From Leptolyngbya sp. NIES-3755 (lineage in GTDB: Bacteria; Cyanobacteriota; Cyanobacteriia; Leptolyngbyales; Leptolyngbyaceae), in the NCBI GenBank assembly GCA_001548435.1, contig AP017308.1, positions 4,845,030 through 4,909,029 of the forward strand: DNA of 64,000 bases. The letters run 5' to 3'. The position numbers and the translations under genes were made by a program. The notes beneath the pieces are model-generated. The model had not been told where the DNA came from. It searched no databases and saw only the letters and a program-made list of their open reading frames with translations. How positions within the stretch are numbered: the first letter of the stretch is position 1; each line of letters opens with the position of its first letter. Shown piece after piece: positions 17,482 to 27,940 of this stretch.

Positions 17482-18237
17482 ATGAGTCAGCAACCCTACC
17501 GCCGAATCGTGATTGGTGATGTGCATGGTCACTATGAAGGGCTGATGAATTTGCTCGACACGATCGCGCCCGCATCAGACGATCAAGTGTACTTTTTGGG
17601 GGATTTAATCGATCGAGGTCCGCAAAGCTGCCAAGTGATCGAATTCGTCAAAGATAGCCCGTATCAATCTCTGCTCGGAAATCACGAACATTTGCTGCTC
17701 GAAGCCTTTCCAAATGGGCAAGTGTACGCCCCTGCTCTTCAAGCCTGGTTACAAAGTGGCGGACGGGCAACGGTTGCGAGTTATGTCGATGTGGAATTGC
17801 TCGTAAAACACGTGGAATGGATTCGCACCCTGCCGACTTATTTAGATTTGGGTGATGTCTGGCTGGTTCATGCAGGCGTAAATCCAGAGTTACCGATCGA
17901 GCAACAGGGCTATGCGGAATTCTGCTGGATTCGCGATGAGTTCCACAGTTCAATTCAGCCTTATTTCCCAGATAAAACGATTATTACCGGGCACACGATC
18001 ACCTTTACGTTTCAAGGAGTTACACCGGGCGCGATCGCTCAAGGACGAGGTTGGCTTGGCATCGACACCGGAGCGTACCATCCCAAGAGCGGCTGGTTAA
18101 CGGCGTTAGAAATTAATAGCGAACAAGTTTATCAGGTGAATGTTTACACGAATCAGGTGCGAATTTTGCCGCTGAATGAAGTCACGATTCGGGTCGAACC
18201 TCAGAGACGGGGAAAACGGCAGGCACTCAGACTTTGA
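17482..18237 (+). CDS. PPP-type metallophosphatase (serine/threonine phosphatase family)
   Basis: The 251-residue protein has the metallophosphoesterase motifs GDVHGHYEG (near 12), GDLIDRGPQS (near 41), GNHEHLLLE (near 65), and later VHAGVNPE and TGHTITF. These are the metal ligands of PPP-family protein or dinucleotide phosphatases. GGGAG lies before the ATG. The stop codon belongs to the inserted element that abuts the gene (right end at 18234), so the natural C-terminus may have been changed by that insertion. Confidence 0.85.
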   Translation: MSQQPYRRIVIGDVHGHYEGLMNLLDTIAPASDDQVYFLGDLIDRGPQSCQVIEFVKDSPYQSLLGNHEHLLLEAFPNGQVYAPALQAWLQSGGRATVASYVDVELLVKHVEWIRTLPTYLDLGDVWLVHAGVNPELPIEQQGYAEFCWIRDEFHSSIQPYFPDKTIITGHTITFTFQGVTPGAIAQGRGWLGIDTGAYHPKSGWLTALEINSEQVYQVNVYTNQVRILPLNEVTIRVEPQRRGKRQALRL

Positions 18238-18664
18238 CACTCCTCGACCTGAAGGTACGAGGATTCTTGGCTCAACGAAACCACTTCAACTAGATGCCTT
18301 GCAGTCTCTAGCCCAGAGGTGGGATTCTCCCCAAGCGTTACTTCGGGTATGCCCTACCCTAGTTGCTTTCGCAAGTCCTGTTTCGTTTTGCAGCGTATTT
18401 GCTCCAAAATGCTGTTCGTCTAGCTCCTCTGGATCCTTTACCTACTGCGAGGGGGAGTCTAGAAAAATGCAGTAGAACCGCATCGATTCAATTTTCAAGG
18501 TTCAGCGCTTTGTCTTTCGACGGCTAGGTTTTTAGAGTGGTTGATTACCTTTCCACTAATGCAAGTATATGACGAAGCTGTGCTAGAAGCGCTCAGCCCT
18601 GTAGGAGGGTTTCCCTCCGTAGGGGACTGAGTAAGAAGTACAGGGCTTTAGACCCATTTTTTCG
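18234..18664 (-). mobile_element. IS200/IS605-type non-autonomous element, copy A
   Basis: This 431-bp element is flanked on its left side by TTAC (plus-strand 18665-18668) and ends in TCAA, the cleavage signature known from IS608-like elements. The left end folds as GGG(T)C-TAAA-GCCC. The right end folds as CCTCG(T)ACCT-TC-AGGTCGAGG, each with a bulged T as recognised by Y1 transposases. No tnpA, tnpB or iscB frame is present. A copy in opposite orientation lies at 25798-26175. Copy A has an extra segment of about 50 bp containing a GGAGGG/CCCTCC hairpin (around 18598-18650). Confidence 0.75.
18297..18657 (-). ncRNA. HEARO/omega-RNA-like structured RNA, copy A
   Basis: The interior holds segments recalling the IscB omega RNA: GGGTCTAAAGCCC, CATTAGTGGAAAGGTAATCA, then TAAAAACCTAGCCGTCGAAA. 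Compared with copy B, two stems show paired changes: GGGTA/TACCC against GGGCG/CGCCC, and TTGC/GCAA against TCGCG/CGCGA. That argues for a selected RNA fold. The resemblance to HEARO RNA is from memory and needs a covariance-model search. Bounds are approximate. Confidence 0.55.
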
Positions 18665-18687
18665 GTAAGTCCCTGCCAAATTTAGAG

Positions 18688-19518
18688 TTAACGAAGTCGC
18701 GCTCGATAACTAGCAGCATCCGTTCCAGCCCGTCCAGGAGCCGGACTTTGAGAAATCAACTGCTGTAACCGGGTAATCCGATCGCTCGTTGCTGGGTGAT
18801 TTGCCAGAAAGGTCGGCGGAGACGAAGAATTCAATAGTTTCCGCATAAAGGCAACTGCTTCTGACTGAGCATATCCCGCACGTCCCATCGTTCGCAGTCC
18901 GAGTTCATCCGCTTCATATTCATCCCGACGACTATTTGGTAAGCGGAGAGCAACTTGAACCCCCAAATTGACCGCCGTACTGCGATCGAGTCCTCCTGCT
19001 GCCAAAAGTCCTTGTTGGATTGCCGTTTGACGCATCTGTTTGAGCGCGTGTTTTCCAGCAATGTGTCCAATCTCGTGACCAATCACGCTGGCGACTTGTG
19101 CTTCATTGTCAGCGGCATTTAGCAAACCCCGGTGAACATAGACAAATCCGCCCATTGTGGCAAAAGCGTTGATGCTATTTTGATCAACGACTTGGAACGT
19201 GTAGCGAATATTCGGTCGGGTGCTATTTGCGGCAAGTCTTTGACCGATCTCGTTCACATAAGCGGTTAACTGCGGATCGCGGACAATTCGGACTTGGCTA
19301 CTGGTCAATTCAGCATTAATTTGGCGACCGAGATCTGTCTCTTGATTATCGTTGAGGCGAGAAAGCTGAGTGCCTTGAATAATCTGAATTCCGCCCCGGA
19401 GCAAATCTCCCCAGGAGATCGCTTGAGCGACAAGTGGCTGCCCAAAAGCAATTCCGGCAACCATCACGATCGATAAAACAGGATACAGCCAACGGCGACG
19501 TAATGTTTTTGTAATCAT
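18688..19518 (-). CDS. M48 family metalloprotease
   Basis: The 276-residue protein has an N-terminal signal or anchor (WLYPVLSIVMVAGIAFG) and the zinc motif HEIGH in VIGHEIGHIAGKHALKQ. EYEADELGLR supplies the third ligand. This is the BepA/YggG-like periplasmic branch of M48, which acts in outer-membrane protein quality control in other bacteria. The single gene is preceded by an A/T-rich upstream region. It ends 24 bp from the inserted element. Confidence 0.85.
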   Translation of the reverse strand: MITKTLRRRWLYPVLSIVMVAGIAFGQPLVAQAISWGDLLRGGIQIIQGTQLSRLNDNQETDLGRQINAELTSSQVRIVRDPQLTAYVNEIGQRLAANSTRPNIRYTFQVVDQNSINAFATMGGFVYVHRGLLNAADNEAQVASVIGHEIGHIAGKHALKQMRQTAIQQGLLAAGGLDRSTAVNLGVQVALRLPNSRRDEYEADELGLRTMGRAGYAQSEAVAFMRKLLNSSSPPTFLANHPATSDRITRLQQLISQSPAPGRAGTDAASYRARLR

Positions 19519-19699
19519 AGAACTGTAGGAAATGCGTGAGGCGCTTCTGTTGGAGACGGAGCTTGACTCGATTTAGTTGCGATCGCAATCGAAAAATTGC
19601 TCGATCGCTTCGTGGAGTCGTGCTAATCTTGACAGGCGTTGATCAAAGATTGACGATTCATCCCGTTCAACACACAAGACATTTAGATCAAGCATAACT

Positions 19700-20218
19700 A
19701 TGGCTATCGTGGATTCTCAAGGTCGGCTCTTCGGAAAGGTCAGCATCCTGGATGTGGGTGCAGCCCTGGTGATTCTGCTCGTGGTGGTTGGAATTTTTGT
19801 GTTTCCAGGAACCTCTGGCTCGGCTCAAGGGGTTCGACTTCCCGTTGAGGTGGATGTGGTGGTACGAGGTTTGAGCGCGACGAATCCTAAAGAGTTTATC
19901 CAGGCGGGAACTCAAACGAATATTCTGGTGCGGAAACAGCCTTCGGGCACGGCGACTTTGAAAGAGATTAAGTTCTTGCCGCGTACTGTTGCAACTCCTC
20001 AACCGAATGGAACCCTGAAAGTTTTTCCTGATCCTCGTCCAGAGTTGGCTTTAACGACAGACATGATGCTGACGTTGGCGAATGAGGTTCCGGTGGTCGA
20101 TGGAACGCCTGTGTTGGGTGCAGAAAAAGTCAAAGTCGGAACCACGATCGAACTCGATGGTCCAACTTATAACTTTGCAAGTAGCGTGGTCGCAATTCGG
20201 ATTCAGAAGAAGGGCTAA
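19700..20218 (+). CDS. DUF4330 family membrane protein
   Basis: The 172-residue protein starts MAIVDSQGRLFGKVSILDVG and has one transmembrane helix (ALVILLVVVGIFVF) followed by a beta-rich extracytoplasmic domain. This is the usual layout of cyanobacterial DUF4330 proteins. Function is unknown. The gene converges on exoD with 2 bp between the stops. Confidence 0.75.
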   Translation: MAIVDSQGRLFGKVSILDVGAALVILLVVVGIFVFPGTSGSAQGVRLPVEVDVVVRGLSATNPKEFIQAGTQTNILVRKQPSGTATLKEIKFLPRTVATPQPNGTLKVFPDPRPELALTTDMMLTLANEVPVVDGTPVLGAEKVKVGTTIELDGPTYNFASSVVAIRIQKKG

Positions 20219-20220
20219 AT

Positions 20221-20823
20221 TCAGCTCAACTGATTGAGTAGATCTGGAGCTTTCCAGAGGATGTAAACCGCGATCGCACAAATCGCAGTAATCAGAGCCG
20301 TTACTCCATAAGCGATACACATCAGCAATCCGTCCGATTCGAGCATTGCAACCACGAGAAGCAATATCCCGATCGTCGGAAACGGATTCGTAAATGGAAT
20401 CGGTGCAATTAATAGAATCGCCAACCAAGTAATGCACAGTCCATTGAACTGCCAGATATGCGGATTTGAGGCGATTCGACGCAGACGAGGGCGCGTGATT
20501 TTTTCTAGAATCCGGGTTACTCGTCTGATATTTTTTAACAACTGACGTGCGATCGCGGTTGGAAATTGAAACTCTGCCACTTTTTTCGGCAACCAAGGCG
20601 ATCGTTTTCCCAATGCCATCTGCATTCCCAAGATGACGCATCCGGCTCCTGGAATTCCGGTTAATCCGGGCGGCAATGGGAATAGAAACGGAATCACCAA
20701 TAGCGCGATGACCAAGCAAAATCCACGTTCTGAAGTTTCTGCCAAAATTGAAGCGATCGTCAAAGGTTCTTCTGAGATTCGCTTCAGCAAAGATTCAAGG
20801 TCTTGAGAAAAACGAAGGTGCAT
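20221..20823 (-). CDS. ExoD family exopolysaccharide synthesis protein
   Basis: The 200-residue membrane protein contains LVIPFLFPLPPGLTGIPGAG and LGKRSPWLPKKV, both typical of ExoD-like proteins, and three to four hydrophobic segments. ExoD homologues affect exopolysaccharide production in rhizobia; the biochemical role is unclear. The start at MHLRFSQDLESLLKRI fits the family length. Confidence 0.8.
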   Translation of the reverse strand: MHLRFSQDLESLLKRISEEPLTIASILAETSERGFCLVIALLVIPFLFPLPPGLTGIPGAGCVILGMQMALGKRSPWLPKKVAEFQFPTAIARQLLKNIRRVTRILEKITRPRLRRIASNPHIWQFNGLCITWLAILLIAPIPFTNPFPTIGILLLVVAMLESDGLLMCIAYGVTALITAICAIAVYILWKAPDLLNQLS

Positions 20824-20913
20824 AAGGGCGCGATCGATGAGCCGTCAGTGGAAATGCGCTGTTTACCATCTTATGTCACTGAGGCGATGGACTTCCCTCA
20901 AGTCGCTAAACAC

Positions 20914-20950
20914 AAAAAATGAAGGGTGAAAGCATTTCGCCTCCACCCTT
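20914..20950 (-). terminator. Terminator after the patU-like gene
   Basis: AAGGGTG and CACCCTT form the stem, and on the minus strand it is followed by CATTTTTT. It lies 19 bp beyond the stop codon of the hetZ-patU operon. Confidence 0.7.
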
Positions 20951-20968
20951 TAACCTCAGCCTCAATTG

Positions 20969-21958
20969 CTATTTCTGAACCCCGATCGCAAAAGTGAGTA
21001 AATCCTGCTCACCTAAGCGAATCTCTAACGGATAGACTCGATCGAGATCGAATTCACGAATCTCCAGGCTTAATCGACCCGCATCATTGCGATCGACCAA
21101 GGCACGAGATTCATCACCCTGAAACGACAAACTGCCACCACAAGGGAGCATCGCTTCGATCGAGAACCGCTCCGATTCATACCCAACCTTTAACGTAAAT
21201 GCGCCCAACTCAGTGAGCCATTCGCGCTCTAATTGCGGCTGATGGGTCGAAACCGTGAGCATCAATGTGCTGAGAATTTCCCGTGCAGCTAAGAGCGATA
21301 ACGCCATTTGTTGCGTCTCGATCGCGCTGTCATACGACTGGGGAAGTTCTTCACCGATTTCGATCGCGAGGTCTTGCAGCTTGGCAACCTTAGACCGAGC
21401 CGGTGATACCATCACATAACCCGCAACATTATTCAGCAGTTGAGTTTGACCCGGAAACAGTGGATCGACTGCCCGAACCAGTTTTGCTCCTTCTCGGAGC
21501 GAGGAGAATAATACCGATTGGCACCGCGCCAGAAGTTCGGTCATCACCGCTTCAGGCATGGGAATCGGCAAATTCATCTGACGAATTTGTTGTAACCAAA
21601 CAGTTGCAGCGACTAAAGCAGGTTGCGCTTCGGAACGGGACGGCTCAGCGTCATAGTCCACCGCTTCTTTCTCCCAAGGAAAAAGAGGGGGGTTTTTCTG
21701 AGCTTCCTGTAGAAGACGATGTTTTAGCAGCGCATGAAAACGATCTTGCACAGCAGGTATCTCTCCCGGTTGGTGTGATGAATCCTCGTGTGAGGAACGC
21801 GCTCGGAGGGAACTGTCCCCACGAACGGAGTCACTGATTGGATCACGATTTAGGGGCGGCTGTAGCAAATCTATCTGAGGGTCAGATCGATCGACCAGAC
21901 CGAGATTTTGTAACAGTTTTAATAGAACTTGTGTTCTCTTGTCTAAGTTGTGATCCAT
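20969..21958 (-). CDS. PatU-like protein
   Basis: The 329-residue protein begins with a short helical domain (LDKRTQVLLKLLQNLGLVD) and a disordered middle. Then PPLFPWEKEAVDYD and a C-terminal domain of about 200 residues follow. A gene of this kind lies directly after hetZ in filamentous cyanobacteria. In Anabaena it is patU, which affects heterocyst pattern. Here it starts 12 bp after hetZ and shares its terminator. The assignment depends on synteny and the FPWE segment. Confidence 0.65.
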   Translation of the reverse strand: MDHNLDKRTQVLLKLLQNLGLVDRSDPQIDLLQPPLNRDPISDSVRGDSSLRARSSHEDSSHQPGEIPAVQDRFHALLKHRLLQEAQKNPPLFPWEKEAVDYDAEPSRSEAQPALVAATVWLQQIRQMNLPIPMPEAVMTELLARCQSVLFSSLREGAKLVRAVDPLFPGQTQLLNNVAGYVMVSPARSKVAKLQDLAIEIGEELPQSYDSAIETQQMALSLLAAREILSTLMLTVSTHQPQLEREWLTELGAFTLKVGYESERFSIEAMLPCGGSLSFQGDESRALVDRNDAGRLSLEIREFDLDRVYPLEIRLGEQDLLTFAIGVQK

Positions 21959-21970
21959 TGTGATAACACC

Positions 21971-23158
21971 CTATTCATCAGCCGATGGGGTTCCTCCGGA
22001 ATCTTGGTCATTACGAATTTCCCAAGCTTGCTCAAGGAGTTTAAACCATTGTTTCTGAACTTGATTCACGGTGCAACCTAATCGTTGGGCGATCGTAGTT
22101 TCCGGTAATTTTTGTTGCTTCAGATCCAAGAGTTTTGCTTGAGCGGCGGTGGCGCGTTGGTGTAACGTTTGCCACTGGCGATTCGAGAGTCCGAGATTGC
22201 GCTCCAAGTCTGCCTCTAGCCATTGATGGACGAGTTCCCAATGGTGCGAGAACGAGAATCGAATCAAATGATATTTGAATCGTTGCTGTAAGTAATCCCG
22301 TTGGCGAGGGGTTAAGCCCAAAATCGCTTCGATTTCGTTGGCGGGCAAGTCTTGAAGCCGCAGAGTGAAGTAGTCGATACAGTCGGTTTGCTTGCGTTCT
22401 TCGAGGTAGGCGACCAGTTCTTTGATCACCGATTGGCGTAGGGTGTCTTCTGCCAATTCCGGCTCTTGAGCGACCATTTGTTCGCGAACTTGCTGGATCG
22501 ATGCCATATTCCAAGGATTTTCGGATTCGGACATTGAACCTTCGGCAGCTTGCTCTAGATCGACTAGAGTTTCGATCGGTTGCTGTTGAGAGAAGGTTTG
22601 CGCTCGAAGAATGATCAATTGCTGATTGCGATGTCCAGGAAGAGGAATTCGCCGTTTTCCATAGCGCTCGGTGAACGCCATATATTCGGAGAGTTCTAAC
22701 GTCGATCGAGGCGTGTAAGTCGCGCCTAATTGGGACTCCCGACGAAACGCATTCAGCGCTTCCATGTAGAAGCCTTGTAAAAAATCTTCGATCAGAACTA
22801 ACCGCGCTTGATAACTCGATTGAGTTTGCGGGGGTGTGATGTAACGGTAAATCACTGCGCTCAAATTGCTGTGCAGTTCAGCACGACCCCGACGTGAACC
22901 GAGGCGATAATACGCCAAACATTGTTGGAGACGGTGTTTCGCGAGCGTCGTTGCCCACGTTTGAATTTCTCCGGATGCTTGAATCCGTTTGCTTTCCGAA
23001 CAGATTCGGACAACTTCCTGGGTCAGTCGATCGGCAACTTCCCGGCAGTTTCGCTCAGAGGCAGTGGTGGCTTGTTTCAGTTCATTCAACAGAAGCTGAA
23101 AAATTGCGTCCACGCTCTGGCAGATTTCCCCCACAGTTTCTAGTGTCGTGCAAATCAA
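21971..23158 (-). CDS. HetZ-like regulator
   Basis: The 395-residue protein has family segments YRLGSRRGRAELHSNLSA, LSEYMAFTERYGKRRIPLPG and RLQDLPANEIEAILGLTPRQ. The last is a sigma-factor-like helix-turn-helix. HetZ controls early heterocyst differentiation in Anabaena and is also conserved in filamentous strains without heterocysts, where its role is less clear. The start appears to be TTG at 23158; GTG at 23134 is an alternative. A 20-bp palindrome lies 33 bp upstream. Confidence 0.75.
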   Translation of the reverse strand: MICTTLETVGEICQSVDAIFQLLLNELKQATTASERNCREVADRLTQEVVRICSESKRIQASGEIQTWATTLAKHRLQQCLAYYRLGSRRGRAELHSNLSAVIYRYITPPQTQSSYQARLVLIEDFLQGFYMEALNAFRRESQLGATYTPRSTLELSEYMAFTERYGKRRIPLPGHRNQQLIILRAQTFSQQQPIETLVDLEQAAEGSMSESENPWNMASIQQVREQMVAQEPELAEDTLRQSVIKELVAYLEERKQTDCIDYFTLRLQDLPANEIEAILGLTPRQRDYLQQRFKYHLIRFSFSHHWELVHQWLEADLERNLGLSNRQWQTLHQRATAAQAKLLDLKQQKLPETTIAQRLGCTVNQVQKQWFKLLEQAWEIRNDQDSGGTPSADE

Positions 23159-23190
23159 TGGCTTACTCTCATTGGTTTGATGGAACTTTT

Positions 23191-23210
23191 TTGTGATGCC
23201 TAGATCACAA
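23191..23210. promoter_or_regulatory. 20-bp palindrome between divergent hetZ and neighbour
   Basis: TTGTGAT and ATCACAA are perfect 7-bp arms around GCCTAG. It lies in the short space shared by two divergent genes and is a likely operator. The half-sites resemble those of CRP-family proteins, but the spacing is 2 bp longer than in the CRP consensus. Confidence 0.5.
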
Positions 23211-23239
23211 TAGTGGTAGAAATCCCTGATTATTTGCGG

Positions 23240-23734
23240 ATGGCACGGTTTATGAACCTAGATCAACAGCTTCAAACGCTTATCGATGAAGCCCCCCAGG
23301 ACGGCTCAACCCCTCAGTTAATTAAATCTATCGCTCCGGTGTTGGGCGCGATCGCGCAACGGTTACGACATCTTCAATATTATGTGGTGCAGACGCTCGA
23401 TCAAAATTGGGTGATGCTGACCCTCAACCACCGTGCCCAGAACGAACCTGAGAAAAACGTGATTTATGCCTTTCCCAGCCTCAAGGACGTGGCTTCTAGT
23501 CCTTATAATTTGGCTGATCCGAACTTGATTGCTTTGCCTGTTCCGGTGACGCATATCCTGTTTCAAATGCTGGCAATGGATAAAGAGTACAGCACGATTT
23601 TTTTTGAAACGCCGGGGAATGCGACGATCGGGACAGAGGTTCAGCGATCAGAACTCGAAGTCATGATTCAAGAATATTGGCGTGAACAGGCAGATGCGGT
23701 GACTGAAACCAATATTCCAAGTGATATCGCCTGA
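23240..23734 (+). CDS. Conserved cyanobacterial hypothetical protein
   Basis: The product has about 164 residues from the ATG at 23240 (a GTG at 23213 and an ATG at 23252 are alternatives). It is a compact alpha/beta protein with RLRHLQYYVVQTLDQNWVML and NVIYAFPSLKDVAS. No named domain is recognised. It is divergent from hetZ, so the two may be co-regulated. Confidence 0.6.
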   Translation: MARFMNLDQQLQTLIDEAPQDGSTPQLIKSIAPVLGAIAQRLRHLQYYVVQTLDQNWVMLTLNHRAQNEPEKNVIYAFPSLKDVASSPYNLADPNLIALPVPVTHILFQMLAMDKEYSTIFFETPGNATIGTEVQRSELEVMIQEYWREQADAVTETNIPSDIA

Positions 23735-24143
23735 GATGGACTGATTCGTGCGGGTTGGAACTGTAGATCTAAATCTTGGTAGAAGGCTTTAGAGTTGCAG
23801 TTCTGACTTTGCTAGAGAAAAACTCTGAGAAAGTCAACCGTCTGAGTACGAATCTTTTCTAACTGCTTCCAGATTGCACCGCGATGAACACGGGGACAAC
23901 CTCAACCCTTAGATTCAAACACAATCCTTACGCTTTCTCAGAGTCAATTCATGAAAGCTTTATATAAAGCATCCGGTTTAAAATCGCTCTAAGTGAAGAC
24001 GTGTAAGGAGTTTAAGCGATTTCTCTGAATGCGACAGCGCATAAATTGAATTTTTCCGGGAACTTTGGGATCTGCTAAAAGACGGAGCTTCAGAATTGGG
24101 GATCGCTGTTACGATCGCCGAAGTTTAATTTTTGGCTTGAAAA
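23735..24143. other. Noncoding gap with a distant inverted repeat
   Basis: These 409 bp hold no credible frame. CTCTGAGAAAG (23823-23833) and CTTTCTCAGAG (23933-23943) are perfect complements 99 bp apart. GCTTTATATAAAGC is palindromic near 23957. A small RNA or long leader of the DUF1830 gene is possible; nothing more can be said. Confidence 0.4.
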
Positions 24144-24410
24144 ATGAATTCTCTTTCGTCTCAGGCGAGTCCTAAAAACCTCTGCTGCTATGTCAATTCA
24201 ACGCGGCATATACAGATTGCTCGAATCATTGATGTTCCGAATTGGTATTTTGAGCGGGTGGTTTTTCCAGGGGAGCGTTTGATGTTTGAAGCACCCCTGG
24301 AGGCTCATTTAGAGATTCATACCGGATCGATGGCGAGTGCGATTTTGATGGACACGATTCCGTGTGAGCGGTTGCGGGTTCGGAGTTCGGTCTCTGCGGC
24401 TTCGTTGTGA
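24144..24410 (+). CDS. DUF1830 family protein
   Basis: The 88-residue product has the family core LCCYVNSTRHIQIARIIDVP and NWYFERVVFPGERLMFEAP. It is a small cyanobacteria-specific protein of unknown role. The reading frame matches the usual length. A C-run/G-run hairpin around CCCCCAAAATGGGGG follows the gene near 24433. Confidence 0.8.
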   Translation: MNSLSSQASPKNLCCYVNSTRHIQIARIIDVPNWYFERVVFPGERLMFEAPLEAHLEIHTGSMASAILMDTIPCERLRVRSSVSAASL

Positions 24411-24469
24411 GCGGGTTGTGCCCCCTAAATCCCCCAAAATGGGGGACTTTGATTCAGAAAAAACTTTCT

Positions 24470-25759
24470 CTAAGATTGGCTGTTCCAAGTTTGAGCCGCG
24501 TCTGAGAGGGCTTGATCGACCGTTTTTTGTCCAAGCATTGCAGCTTGGAGGTTTTCGTAAATCGTTTGCTGCAAGGACTTGATGTTTTTGATCACGGGAA
24601 TCAGAACTTCTGCTCGTTGAAGTTGTCCAGCACTAACGATTCGGGCTTTGTCGATCGAGGTTGCATCCTTGGGCGCAGTCGTGAAATACGCATCTTTCGC
24701 GGCTTGGATCGTTGAAGGTAGAACATTCGCGGCTTTGGCAAAGGCAAGCTGATTCTCGTTATTGGTCAGGAATAGCGCGAATTTCACTGCTGCATCGGGT
24801 TGATCCGTATCTTTTGGAATCGCCACATTCATCACAGCAACGTTCTTTTTGCCTGTATCACCTGTGATTTGGGGGGCAGATTGGGAAGATTTCGCGATCG
24901 ACGGTGCGTTTTTGGCGATCGACTTCAAGAATTCGGCTCCCGATGCCAGGATCGCGGTATTGCCTTGTTGGTAAAGGTCGATCGCGTGTCGGTGTCCTTC
25001 GGTTAAGACCTCTTTCGGCATCAAGCCATTTTTGTACATATCCACCCAGTACTGGAATGCAGCTTTTCCCTGAGGCGAATTGAATGCGGCTTTTCCTTGA
25101 ACATCGACAAGCTGAACGCCCATCTGGACAAAGGATTCCATCACTTCGCCTGAATCATTTGGAACAACTGTGGCAAAAAAGGCATATTTCCCAGTTTTGT
25201 CTTTGATTTGCTTGGCGGCTTGAGCGAGTTCCGCATAAGTGGCAGGAGGTTTCGCAATACCCGCCTGCTTCATCAAATCTGTGTTGTAAATGGCGACTCG
25301 CGTGGTGAGATACCAGGGCACACCGAACGTTTTGCCGTTTAGCGTACTCGCTTGCCAGATTCCTGGAAAGTATTGCTGTTTGACATCGGCTGGAATTTTT
25401 TCATCTAAGTTCATCCAAGCTCCACGTTCTGCTAGTTGAGAAGCAAAACCAGGATTGAGATTCACCACATCGGGAGCGGTTTTTGCAGCCACCGAAGTTA
25501 AAATCTTGCGCTCCATTTCTGCCCAAGGTACATCTGTCCAACGAATCTCTACTCCTGGATTTTCCTGCTCGAATTTAGCAAACAAGGATTTGAAATAGTC
25601 ATCGAATTGGGGACTGAGTTGCATCGTCCAAAAATCGAGTTGATCATCGGCTGTCTGCTGTCCGGCTGGGGTTCCACTTCCACAACTGACAAGCCAACTG
25701 ACTACAACTCCCAAAATTGTAAATATTGTGAACGTTTTCCAAGATCTGATTTGACGCAT
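24470..25759 (-). CDS. ABC sugar transporter substrate-binding lipoprotein
   Basis: The 429-residue protein has a lipobox LVSC with the lipidated Cys at 26. It reads as a family 1 solute-binding protein: DFWTMQLSPQFDDYFKSLF, TDVPWAEMERKILTS, and GVPWYLTTRVAIYNTDLM. It should bind a sugar or sugar-like solute outside the membrane. A UgpC/MalK-type ATPase lies 2 kb further on, but no permease genes are nearby, so the transporter must be completed elsewhere. Confidence 0.85.
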   Translation of the reverse strand: MRQIRSWKTFTIFTILGVVVSWLVSCGSGTPAGQQTADDQLDFWTMQLSPQFDDYFKSLFAKFEQENPGVEIRWTDVPWAEMERKILTSVAAKTAPDVVNLNPGFASQLAERGAWMNLDEKIPADVKQQYFPGIWQASTLNGKTFGVPWYLTTRVAIYNTDLMKQAGIAKPPATYAELAQAAKQIKDKTGKYAFFATVVPNDSGEVMESFVQMGVQLVDVQGKAAFNSPQGKAAFQYWVDMYKNGLMPKEVLTEGHRHAIDLYQQGNTAILASGAEFLKSIAKNAPSIAKSSQSAPQITGDTGKKNVAVMNVAIPKDTDQPDAAVKFALFLTNNENQLAFAKAANVLPSTIQAAKDAYFTTAPKDATSIDKARIVSAGQLQRAEVLIPVIKNIKSLQQTIYENLQAAMLGQKTVDQALSDAAQTWNSQS

Positions 25760-25797
25760 GGATTTAGATAATTGAATCGCAGCGTAGCCCAGTTTAC

Positions 25798-26175
25798 CGA
25801 AAAAATGGGTCTAAAGCCCTCTTTCTAGCACGGCTTTGTAGTATTATTTCATTAGTGGGAAGGTAATCAACCACTCTAAAAACCTTGTCGTCGAAAGACA
25901 CGCTGAACCTTGAAAATTAAATCGATGCGGTTCTACTGCATTTTTCTAGACTCCCCCTCGCAGTAGGTAAAAGATTTAGAGGAGCTAGACGAACAGCATT
26001 TTGGAGCAATTTGCTTCAATCTGAAACAGGACTCGCGGAAACGCGAATAGGGCGGGGCACGCCCGAATTAACGCTTGGGGAGAATCCCACCTCTGGGCTA
26101 GAGACTGCAAGGACTCTAGTTTAAGTGGTTTCGTTGAGCCAAGAATCCTCGTACCTTCAGGTCGAGGAGTGTCAA
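25798..26175 (+). mobile_element. IS200/IS605-type non-autonomous element, copy B
   Basis: The 378-bp element is preceded by TTAC (25794-25797) and ends in TCAA. It has the same bulged-T end hairpins as copy A and lies in opposite orientation. It fills the space between the sugar-binding protein start and the histidine kinase stop (14 bp away). No protein frame is inside. It lacks the extra 50-bp hairpin of copy A. Confidence 0.75.
25805..26112 (+). ncRNA. HEARO/omega-RNA-like structured RNA, copy B
   Basis: It shows the same conserved order as copy A: GGGTCTAAAGCCC, CATTAGTGGGAAGGTAATCA, TAAAAACCTTGTCGTCGAAA, GGAGCTAGACGAACAGCATT and AACGCTTGGGGAGAATCCC. Stems GGGCG/CGCCC and TCGCG/CGCGA covary with copy A. 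It may be a stand-alone guide-type RNA acting with a protein encoded elsewhere, or a decaying relic. Bounds are approximate. Confidence 0.55.
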
Positions 26176-26188
26176 AGGATTAAATCGC

Positions 26189-27940
26189 TCAACTCCACAG
26201 CAATTGTTTCACTGGAATTTCAATTACAAAAGTGGCACCTCGTTTTGAAGTTCTGTCGCATTTCAATCGTCCTCCATGTTGCTCAGAGACAATCTGATAG
26301 CTGACAGATAAACCGAGTCCTGATCCTTGACCGATCGGCTTTGTGGTGAAGAATGGATCGAATAAACGGGAATGCGTTGCCGCAGTCATTCCAATGCCAT
26401 TATCAGAAATCGAGACGCGTACCCATTCAGAAGATTTCGTTTCTTGAAAGAGTGAAGTTTGAATTTCTATAGTTGGCGTGAAATCCATTTCTTCGGCTTG
26501 CCAGCGATCGTTAATTGCCTCGATCGCATTCGAGAAGATGTTGATAAAAACTTGGTTCAATAGTCCCGCAAAACATTGGACTTTTGGCAGCGTTGTATAG
26601 TGCTTCACGACTTGAATCGTAGGACGAAGGATCGGATTGCCAGAAGCACGATTCGATTTCAGTAAATGCTGCAATAACATTAGAGTGCTGTCGATCCCTT
26701 CGTACAAGTCAACGGCTTTTAGATCCGCTTCATCGTGACGCGAGAAAGTTCTCAGAGATCGCACAATATCGCGAATTCGCTCTGCTCCAGTTCCCATCGA
26801 ATCGAGCAGCTTGAACAAGTCATGTCGCAGGAATTCTAAATCAGCGTCTTCGATTTCTTCTGCAACTCGATCGCTAGGAACGGGATGATCAGTTTGGTAT
26901 AGATGAATGATGTGTAGAAGGTCTTCAATGTATTGTTTTGCTGGCTCAACATTGCCATAGATAAAACTCACCGGATTGTTGATTTCATGAGCAATTCCCG
27001 CAACTAATTGCCCCAAGCTGGACATCTTTTCGGTTTGAATCAGTTGAGCTTGAGTTTTTTGGAGTTGTTTGAATGCGGTTTCAAGTTCTTGAGCTTGTTG
27101 GCGTAATTGTGACTCAGATTGTTTGAGCGCGATCGCAGTTTGTTCTCGTTCGGTTTCGACTCGAAATCGATCGGTAATATCAATTCCCATCGAAACAATG
27201 CTCATCACACTGCCATTTGGAGCTAACAAGGGATAGTGATACCACTCACAAACGATCGCTTTTCCGCTTTGAGTGCAATGATTTTGAATTTGCTGTGTGA
27301 CTCCCGATTGAGTGAGCAGAGGCGCGATTTGATCAAGCACTTCCTCTCGTGCAAGTTCTGGCAAAATTTCATCGAGCGATCGACCCACTGCTTCTGAGCG
27401 ATGATAGCCAAATACTCTTTGAGCCGTTGCATTCCAAGTCTGAATTTTATAGTCAGCACTCCATTCCACGAACATAAATGGAGATTGTTGAATTAATAGC
27501 GTTAAACGTTGCTGCGATCGTACTAATGCTGCTTCCGCTGCTTTACGTTCTTGGATCTCTTGCTCTAATTGGGTCGCTTGTGCTTTGGGCTGACTGAGCA
27601 AATCATTGATCGTCGCTACGATATACGGTGTTCCTGCTGCACCGTAAGTAATTGATTTTACCAGTGAAATTTCCTGGGCGATACCAGTCGCATCATAGAG
27701 ATATCCTGATTGGATCACTTGAGTTCCAGTCTGGAAAATCACTTCGTCGTCTCTGAGTTCTGAAGAGAAAATACGATCGACGTTTTCGAGAAATTCTGAG
27801 AGATTATAGTGCGATCGCTGACAAAGAGCGCGATTTGCGAAGACGATTCGATGCTGTCGATCGATGATAAAAATGGGAACTGCAACTCGATCGAGAACTT
27901 GCCAAAGCTCTAACTCCGTCTGCTCAATTGCGCCAATCAT
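26189..27940 (-). CDS. PAS domain sensor histidine kinase
   Basis: The 583-residue soluble kinase has two PAS domains (about 10-100 and 140-255) and a coiled-coil linker. The phospho-acceptor H318 is in GIAHEINNP. ATPase boxes include N (NIFSNAIEAI), G1 (DNGIGM) and G2 (GQGSGLGLSVSYQIV). No membrane segment is seen, so it senses a cytoplasmic signal. No response regulator gene lies nearby. Confidence 0.9.
   Translation of the reverse strand: MIGAIEQTELELWQVLDRVAVPIFIIDRQHRIVFANRALCQRSHYNLSEFLENVDRIFSSELRDDEVIFQTGTQVIQSGYLYDATGIAQEISLVKSITYGAAGTPYIVATINDLLSQPKAQATQLEQEIQERKAAEAALVRSQQRLTLLIQQSPFMFVEWSADYKIQTWNATAQRVFGYHRSEAVGRSLDEILPELAREEVLDQIAPLLTQSGVTQQIQNHCTQSGKAIVCEWYHYPLLAPNGSVMSIVSMGIDITDRFRVETEREQTAIALKQSESQLRQQAQELETAFKQLQKTQAQLIQTEKMSSLGQLVAGIAHEINNPVSFIYGNVEPAKQYIEDLLHIIHLYQTDHPVPSDRVAEEIEDADLEFLRHDLFKLLDSMGTGAERIRDIVRSLRTFSRHDEADLKAVDLYEGIDSTLMLLQHLLKSNRASGNPILRPTIQVVKHYTTLPKVQCFAGLLNQVFINIFSNAIEAINDRWQAEEMDFTPTIEIQTSLFQETKSSEWVRVSISDNGIGMTAATHSRLFDPFFTTKPIGQGSGLGLSVSYQIVSEQHGGRLKCDRTSKRGATFVIEIPVKQLLWS

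Follow-up and report, generated by a model that had tools for sequence, protein, structure and literature searches.

Two protein-less elements and their insertion sites

The window analysed here, a stretch of 64,000 nucleotides from the genome of the cyanobacterium Leptolyngbya sp. NIES-3755 (contig AP017308.1), carries two inverted copies of a small mobile element that lacks any protein gene and appears to encode a structured RNA (Table 1). A preliminary description of this DNA had placed the two copies exactly, with TTAC on the left and TCAA at the right end of both, and its reading that neither holds a tnpA, tnpB or iscB frame stands among the listed frames of at least 90 amino acids, judged by reading. 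A weak Transposase-2 match on copy 1 was not used, as it scored 15.5 bits where the cut-off is 42.7 (E-value (E) 1.6). In a repeat scan the copies align as three inverted arm pairs of 78-138 nt with 87-96% complementarity, and the paired changes reported between them are found in two stems, GGGCG/CGCCC versus GGGTA/TACCC and CGCG-GAAA-CGCG versus TTGC-GAAA-GCAA. The bulged T that had been ascribed to both end hairpins was borne out for the right one (CCTCG-T-ACC/GGT-CGAGG). Elsewhere in the genome there is a third copy at C1:5438769-5439114 (84% over query positions 56-396 of 406) and one right-end remnant. Together with the 5' domain's occurrence in 51 of 388 sampled genomes of the class (see below), the third copy puts the observation well past coincidence.

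Table 1. Positions of the elements and their parts in the window, and of further tnpB-less loci in the genome (prefix C1)
Feature	Position	Strand	Remark
Copy 1, complete element, 378 bp	25798..26175	+	from C after TTAC through TCAA
TTAC target tetranucleotide, copy 1 left flank; transposon-adjacent motif (TAM) of TnpB if the proposed reading holds	25794..25797	+	kept in empty sites of five same-genus genomes
Copy 1 left-end hairpin AAAGCC/GGCTTT	25813..25837	+	read from the sequence
Copy 1 predicted -10 box TATTAT	25842..25847	+	7 nt ahead of the first stem of the RNA
Copy 1 5' domain of the RNA (model R2)	25854..25995	+	5' pseudoknot, hairpin, pseudoknotted core
Copy 1 P1 stem of the 5' H-type pseudoknot	25855..25874	+	GTGG 25855-25858 / CCAC 25871-25874
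Copy 1 P2 stem	25860..25886	+	AAGGT 25860-25864 / ACCTT 25882-25886; closes the pseudoknot over an A-rich loop
Copy 1 TnpB-type guide-RNA scaffold and right end (model R1)	26035..26175	+	terminal TCAA
Copy 1 predicted 16-nt guide, right flank	26176..26191	+	by analogy with the ISDra2 right element RNA (reRNA; PMC8612924, available in part)
Copy 2, complete element, 431 bp	18234..18664	-	TTAC 18668-18665, then C, through TCAA
Copy 2 core of a separate ~50-nt repeat within the left-end hairpin loop	18604..18635	-	
Copy 2 predicted -10 box TATACT	18564..18569	-	7 nt ahead of the stem
Copy 2 5' domain and variable linker of the RNA	18375..18557	-	
Copy 2 TnpB-type guide-RNA scaffold and right end	18234..18374	-	
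Copy 2 predicted 16-nt guide, right flank	18218..18233	-	as for copy 1 (PMC8612924)
Family B, tnpB-less (L185)	C1:439415-439528		
Family B, tnpB-less (L187)	C1:4824880-4824991		
Family B, tnpB-less (L188)	C1:6233655-6233763		
Family C, tnpB-less (L191)	C1:299807-299926		
Family C, tnpB-less (L192)	C1:1394958-1395077		

In the following, elements, RNAs and scaffolds without tnpB are called solo, L numbers denote loci and G numbers genomes, G000 being that of the window. Comparison with seven same-genus genomes identified empty sites for copy 1: its joined flanks are continuous in five of them (G003, G006, G001, G007 and G005; 77-89% identity). There the TTAC is preserved, nothing is duplicated and a single base at the junction differs; in G002 and G004 each flank matches only by itself. 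The joined flanks of copy 2 likewise gave junction-spanning matches in five same-genus genomes (67-83%); the site in G003 is continuous and reads CTAC through a one-base gap, and the alignment in G006 is ragged and too diverged for a base-by-base reading. Copy 1 is therefore inserted precisely next to TTAC without target duplication, which is how IS608 is described to move in the available part of PMC8612924, namely by insertion 3' of TTAC. The ends are also held in common with autonomous elements. The left end of copy 1 is 80% identical over 46 nt to the end of an element of Chroococcidiopsis thermalis with divergent tnpA and tnpB, reached by way of a Nostoc homologue's left end, and the TnpB locus L046 of the same genome has similar left (79%) and right (81%) ends over 43 nt. 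Both copies are best explained as non-autonomous IS200/IS605-type elements, and the type of their ends had been correctly recognised. The genome holds three Y1-transposase (TnpA) matches, one of them interrupted by a stop, and 16 TnpB matches.

Copy 2 is longer than copy 1 mainly because a palindromic repeat of ~50 nt occupies the loop of its left-end hairpin. The core of this repeat, CTTACTCAGTCCC..GGAGGGAAACCCTCC, is present at five places in the genome when up to three mismatches are allowed (in copy 2 and at C1:299597, 1432384, 2785141 and 4703296). By reading, three of these places fall within or next to elements of the IS605 type (copy 2, L191 and L051), and the repeat is seen again within solo RNAs of G027; it is possibly a separate tiny mobile repeat.

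The 3' part resembles the ends of tnpB genes

A motif search of GTDB genomes returned at least 114 stretches, 98 of which pair in P1. The 16 loci left out for P1 include likely true elements in which this stem is broken or unmatched (L077, L099, L175), and statistics on P1 are conditional since the loci were filtered for its pairing. A right end was recognised by pattern match in 56 of 101 distinct elements; 35 of these measured 295-345 nt, and removing near-duplicates left 34. Leaving out rows with inserts or altered stretches gave alignment A1, the last 141 nt of 31 elements (without L087, L109 and L105), and, for the 5' domain, A2 with 29 (without L087, L109, L093, L100 and L169). A3, also for the 5' domain, has 25 rows, L173, L097, L122 and L125 being further left out, two of them for faulty trimming. 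Covariance models R1 and R2 were built from A1 and A3, respectively.

Model R1, made from elements that have no tnpB, matches the 3' end of 29 of the 30 tnpB loci obtained by a TnpB protein search (L225-L254; E 2e-24 to 1e-3), and all 29 matches overlap the 3' end of the TnpB protein match. It also matches the tnpB 3' ends of L015 and L032 (E ~3e-23), L046 (1.6e-13), and then L051 and L042; in the genome of the window five of the 16 tnpB genes are matched, two of them only at E ~1. The fold of this region begins with an upstream hairpin and closes with that of the right end; between them, stem 1 (CTTGG/CCAAG) surrounds a pair of inner stems. CTTGG/CCAAG was also considered as a pseudoknot, which was rejected, as the stem is nested and encloses the inner stems. 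Two-sided changes occur in 20 of the 31 pairs of A1, more than in any of 500 shuffles by their counts, and 94.8% of cells are paired compared with 23-41% when the partners are slid. A pseudoknot between -105..-103 and -6..-4 pairs in 22 of the 31 rows and in at most six at any of 16 neighbouring offsets. The omega RNA of ISDra2 has, in the available text of PMC10097598, four stems and a pseudoknot of -103..-105 with -5..-3. Homology to tnpB 3' ends is thus joined here by four stems and a pseudoknot near the guide, as in the omega RNA or reRNA of TnpB, and on this homology and covariation the last ~140 nt of the element is a TnpB-type guide-RNA scaffold. Given that the scaffold is of TnpB type and that the guide of ISDra2 TnpB is the flank past the right end (PMC8612924, in its available part), the guide is predicted to come from the right flank.

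This differs from the identity first proposed for the RNA, a stand-alone omega RNA of the IscB/HEARO type with a guide from the left flank. Such a reading would account for a stand-alone, structured RNA at IS605-type ends, but is highly improbable for several reasons. First, HEARO has no match in the window at the Rfam threshold, where a tRNA is the only match at the curated cut-off, nor on copy 1 alone at E<=10, and none of eight solo loci, the two window copies among them, matches any Rfam family at E<=0.5, ribozymes, riboswitches and introns included. Second, the same model, as a positive control, recovers one RNA in the genome (C1:3495501-3495706, 85 bits), directly ahead of the only RRXRR/IscB-type frame (C1:3495758); this single genuine HEARO-iscB locus, C1:3495501-3496282, lies 1.4 Mb away from the elements, and no iscB is adjacent to or inside them. 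Third, the scaffold is homologous to tnpB gene ends, which moves the predicted guide to the other flank. Finally, the position of the predicted promoter described below places the predicted start of the RNA inside the element, with the left flank upstream of this promoter; the sequence GGGTCTAAAGCCC, which had been likened to the omega RNA, belongs to the left end, ahead of the predicted promoter, and falls outside the predicted transcript.

A covarying 5' domain behind a predicted promoter

Upstream of the scaffold lies a domain of ~145 nt that is covarying and multiply pseudoknotted. Its P1 stem varies among homologues as GUGG/CCAC, GCGG/CCGC and GAGG/CCUC, in rows pre-filtered for P1 pairing, and P2 reads AAGGU/ACCUU or AGGGU/ACCC over an A-rich loop. 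The inner part holds a helix, GAAUC/GAUUC, which swaps to GAAGA/UCUUC, a hairpin, and the helix CUAG..CUCC/GGAG.CUAG, which crosses it. In A2, 15 of the 28 pairs show two-sided changes, 92.9% of cells are paired versus 27-48% in slid versions, and four of five covariation measures lie above all or nearly all shuffles. No Rfam 15 family matches the domain. Ahead of it an extended -10 box is predicted: TANNNT ends 5-9 nt ahead of the first stem in 76 of the 84 distinct upstream sequences, against a mean of 15 and a maximum of 25 in shuffles, and the spacing is exactly 7 nt in 57 of them.

At tnpB genes the 5' domain has no convincing counterpart: across 46 distinct tnpB loci, of which 30 came out of the protein search and 16 belong to the genome of the window, the best R2 match has E 0.82. 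The possibility that the motif is a 5' untranslated region of tnpB was rejected on this ground and also by its neighbourhood: tnpB similarity lies within 2.5 kb in three of the 98 stem-bearing loci, 21 of whose records extend less than 1 kb past the motif, and at the nearest is 744 nt away; the same three loci emerged from queries of the window's genome and after 13 queries of the L015 clade had been added. R2 does match the short-form relatives L014 and L023. By reading, shorter RNAs of ~200-280 nt (L014, L061, L063 (G049), L143 and L095) keep the 5' pseudoknot and lack the central domain; they come from G049, from a Gloeomargaritales genome and from Synechococcus sp. M44_DOE_062.

Small divergent frames of the ribbon-helix-helix type adjoin some of these elements. 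One stands above the Pfam cut-off beside solo RNA L008 and beside the tnpB element L016, and one at solo RNA L025 just below it; a hidden Markov model made from the three detects such frames in 18 of 112 upstream regions, several of them weak matches or repeats of one locus. The frames adjoin the RNA promoter in L008, L025 and L060, and tnpB in L016, and are possible repressors, such that some copies may regulate their own promoter. In Sphaerospermopsis, a frame labelled 'transposase' (BAZ83709.1; L270 2704-3087) runs antisense across a solo RNA and is possibly a spurious gene call.

A 5' domain with no convincing counterpart at tnpB loci, together with ribbon-helix-helix frames upstream of some solo elements, raises the alternative that the RNA guides a regulator. 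TldR is a domesticated, nuclease-dead TnpB, and a protein of this kind could act on the flanking genes, or the 5' domain could work through another protein or as a ribozyme. This is unlikely, however, in that the copies are insertion-polymorphic with differing flanks, and the RNA has no ribozyme, riboswitch or intron match in Rfam.

Distribution and lineage of the solo RNAs

Judged by record origin, 95 of the 98 paired-stem loci are listed in Cyanobacteriota; of the other three, L127 is by reading a coding chance match and two are contigs of metagenome-assembled genomes. Viral contigs gave no match to the exact motif and three to a looser one, chance-like on reading. Within the class, R2 at E<=1e-4 matches 51 of 388 sampled genomes, with up to eight solo RNA copies per genome when the best eight candidates of each were scored, and TnpB of the L015 type (E<=1e-60, best four candidates per genome scored) is present in 103 of the 388. 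Both occur together in 38 genomes, with 13 solo only, 65 TnpB only and 272 neither (odds ratio 12, p 1e-14, uncorrected); for strong solo matches only, these numbers are 33, 10, 70 and 275. Copies of L015-type tnpB with one or two in-frame stops, yet similar and in several copies per genome, were also seen (L237, L240, L246 and others among the matches listed).

In the genome of the window itself, R1 at E<=1 gives 14 matches: the three copies described above (family A), the remnant, five tnpB ends and five loci at which no tnpB frame was found. Three of the latter, family B, resemble the resident TnpB locus L046 in their scaffolds (77-81% identity over ~104 nt), two of them also in the left end, and show no match to the 5' domain of family A. 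The remaining two, family C, are 80-81% identical over ~100 nt to the TnpB locus L042, do not match L046, and have a 5' domain weakly homologous to that of family A (R2 at E 8e-5 for L192 and 0.03 for L191). The recurrence of solo families B and C in the same genome supports the reading of these RNAs as guides in trans.

On a tree of 61 scaffolds (141 columns; the truncated L207 and two secondary matches were dropped), the solo and tnpB-linked labels require four changes, compared with 20.4 when they are shuffled; 22 of its 58 inner branches are open. Recent deletion of resident tnpB elements is disfavoured by this tree; read in this way, the solo RNAs probably stem from a single old lineage or a few, and less likely from numerous recent deletions. 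This clustering bears on a further alternative, that the elements are inert miniature inverted-repeat or palindrome-associated transposable elements (MITEs or PATEs), deletion derivatives that TnpA mobilises and whose interior has no RNA function. Being protein-less, insertion-polymorphic and bounded by IS605 ends, they would fit such a class, and Haloquadratum is known to have IS605 relatives that lack a transposase (PATEs; PMC3119063, available in part). Nevertheless, it is quite improbable that the interior is inert: its helices carry compensatory changes across cyanobacterial orders, it has invariant unpaired bases, the predicted promoter stands at a fixed distance, and the solo scaffolds cluster instead of being scattered as fresh deletions would be.

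A proposed satellite of TnpB homing

It is suggested that the elements are likely to be non-autonomous IS200/IS605 transposons that encode a promoter-driven, stand-alone guide RNA for TnpB acting in trans. Of the preliminary description, the IS200/IS605 ends, the maintained fold, the want of a protein and the stand-alone guide RNA dependent on proteins in trans are retained, and the IscB/HEARO identity is not. The only gene of each copy would be an RNA of ~320 nt transcribed from its own predicted promoter, consisting in order of the 5' H-type pseudoknot, the multi-pseudoknot 5' domain, the TnpB-type omega-RNA/reRNA scaffold and the right end, with a tail that would enter the right flank and so acquire its guide; the guides of the copies would differ because their flanks differ. 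TnpA provided in trans would excise the element as a single strand and insert it 3' of TTAC by way of the end hairpins. Excision would leave an empty donor site, TTAC joined to the right flank, at which TnpB, also in trans and loaded with the RNA, would cut; repair from the sister copy would restore the element, which would make it a protein-less satellite of TnpB homing; the homing model is that proposed for ISDra2 in the available part of PMC8612924. Since related RNA-only elements occur across cyanobacteria, the TnpB may be borrowed from other transposons. The 5' domain might shield the 5' end, stabilise the RNA, favour its capture of TnpB in trans, or bind another partner.

Several observations weigh against this proposal. 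Both the scaffold and the 5'-domain structures are favoured over their slid versions because they were derived from copy 1; the scaffold pseudoknot fails in nine of the 31 rows, the small hairpin Ph of the 5' domain pairs in only 69% of cells, and on one of the five measures, further pair types, this domain shows no excess (29 versus 28.0 shuffled). Two of 28 solo loci (L217 and L221) have no R1 match, in a scan that took in neither L253, which had no prior R1 match, nor L196 and L223. Given that the TnpB-bound reRNAs of ISDra2 are only ~150 nt (PMC8612924, in its available part), TnpB by itself gives no reason for a 5' domain to be conserved. The association with L015-type TnpB, present in 38 of the 51 solo genomes and in 65 of the 337 others, is uncorrected for kinship and transposon load, and 13 of the 51 solo genomes lack this TnpB. 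The genome of the window is among the 13: it has no L015-clade TnpB at E<=1e-60 among the best four candidates scored, its nearest TnpB to that clade being ~36% identical, so that the copies in the window may be orphans or may use a divergent TnpB such as L046. In the scaffold tree the starred branches force at least three changes, and a single solo clade appears in none of 200 bootstrap trees, while the approximately unbiased test does not reject it (p 0.33).

Beyond the individual elements, a broader scenario is plausible, if somewhat less likely than not: that the solo RNAs form an ancient RNA-only mobile class of cyanobacteria, in which a guide RNA escaped from the gene of its nuclease, gained a promoter and a new multi-pseudoknot 5' domain, and spread as a satellite that takes TnpB and TnpA from elsewhere. 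In that case the 5' domain would be a new RNA module for competition in trans or for a further partner, and with two more solo families in the same genome the route would be a recurrent one.

Relation to known systems and significance

The closest likeness is to the omega RNA or reRNA of TnpB in ISDra2 and the IS608 group, which shares the homology to the tnpB 3' end, the four stems with a 5'-3' pseudoknot, the TCAA right end and the guide predicted in the right flank (PMC8612924 and PMC10097598, as far as available). The RNA described here differs in that it is solo, outside any tnpB mRNA, has its own predicted promoter, and carries the extra pseudoknotted 5' domain. With PATEs it shares the lack of a transposase, the near-terminal palindromes and the absence of target duplication, whereas the interior of a PATE is, in the available text of PMC3119063, a fused remnant of the ends, and the interior here is an RNA gene conserved across cyanobacterial orders.

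Other comparisons rest on reported systems. Meers et al. in 2023 reportedly described PATEs that bear omega RNAs, and Altae-Tran et al. in 2021 stand-alone HEARO/IscB omega RNAs, which are likewise said to be guide-RNA genes without a protein that presumably act in trans; these are of the IscB type with the guide at their 5' end, unlike the present RNAs, which the HEARO model does not match. IStrons likewise have IS605 ends, a guide RNA of the TnpB type and a further structured RNA, but no Rfam intron, group I included, matches the window, copy 1 or the eight solo loci, and the solo RNA has its own predicted promoter within the element. In the literature consulted, which takes in few subscription papers and preprints, no TnpB guide RNA is described that stands apart from tnpB, has its own promoter and carries a comparable 5' domain; the absence is accordingly weak.

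What can be used at once is a widespread cyanobacterial RNA family that is absent from Rfam 15, for which covariance models R1 and R2 are ready for searches. If the proposal is correct, the RNA would be a natural compact design, and a natural stand-alone guide-RNA gene of this kind would be relevant to the idea, set out in the available part of PMC10097598, that pairs of trans-activating CRISPR RNA (tracrRNA) and CRISPR RNA (crRNA) arose from a split omega RNA. A promoter-driven, gene-less lineage of guide RNAs, if long-lived, would further mean that RNA-guided nucleases can be parasitised at the level of their RNA.

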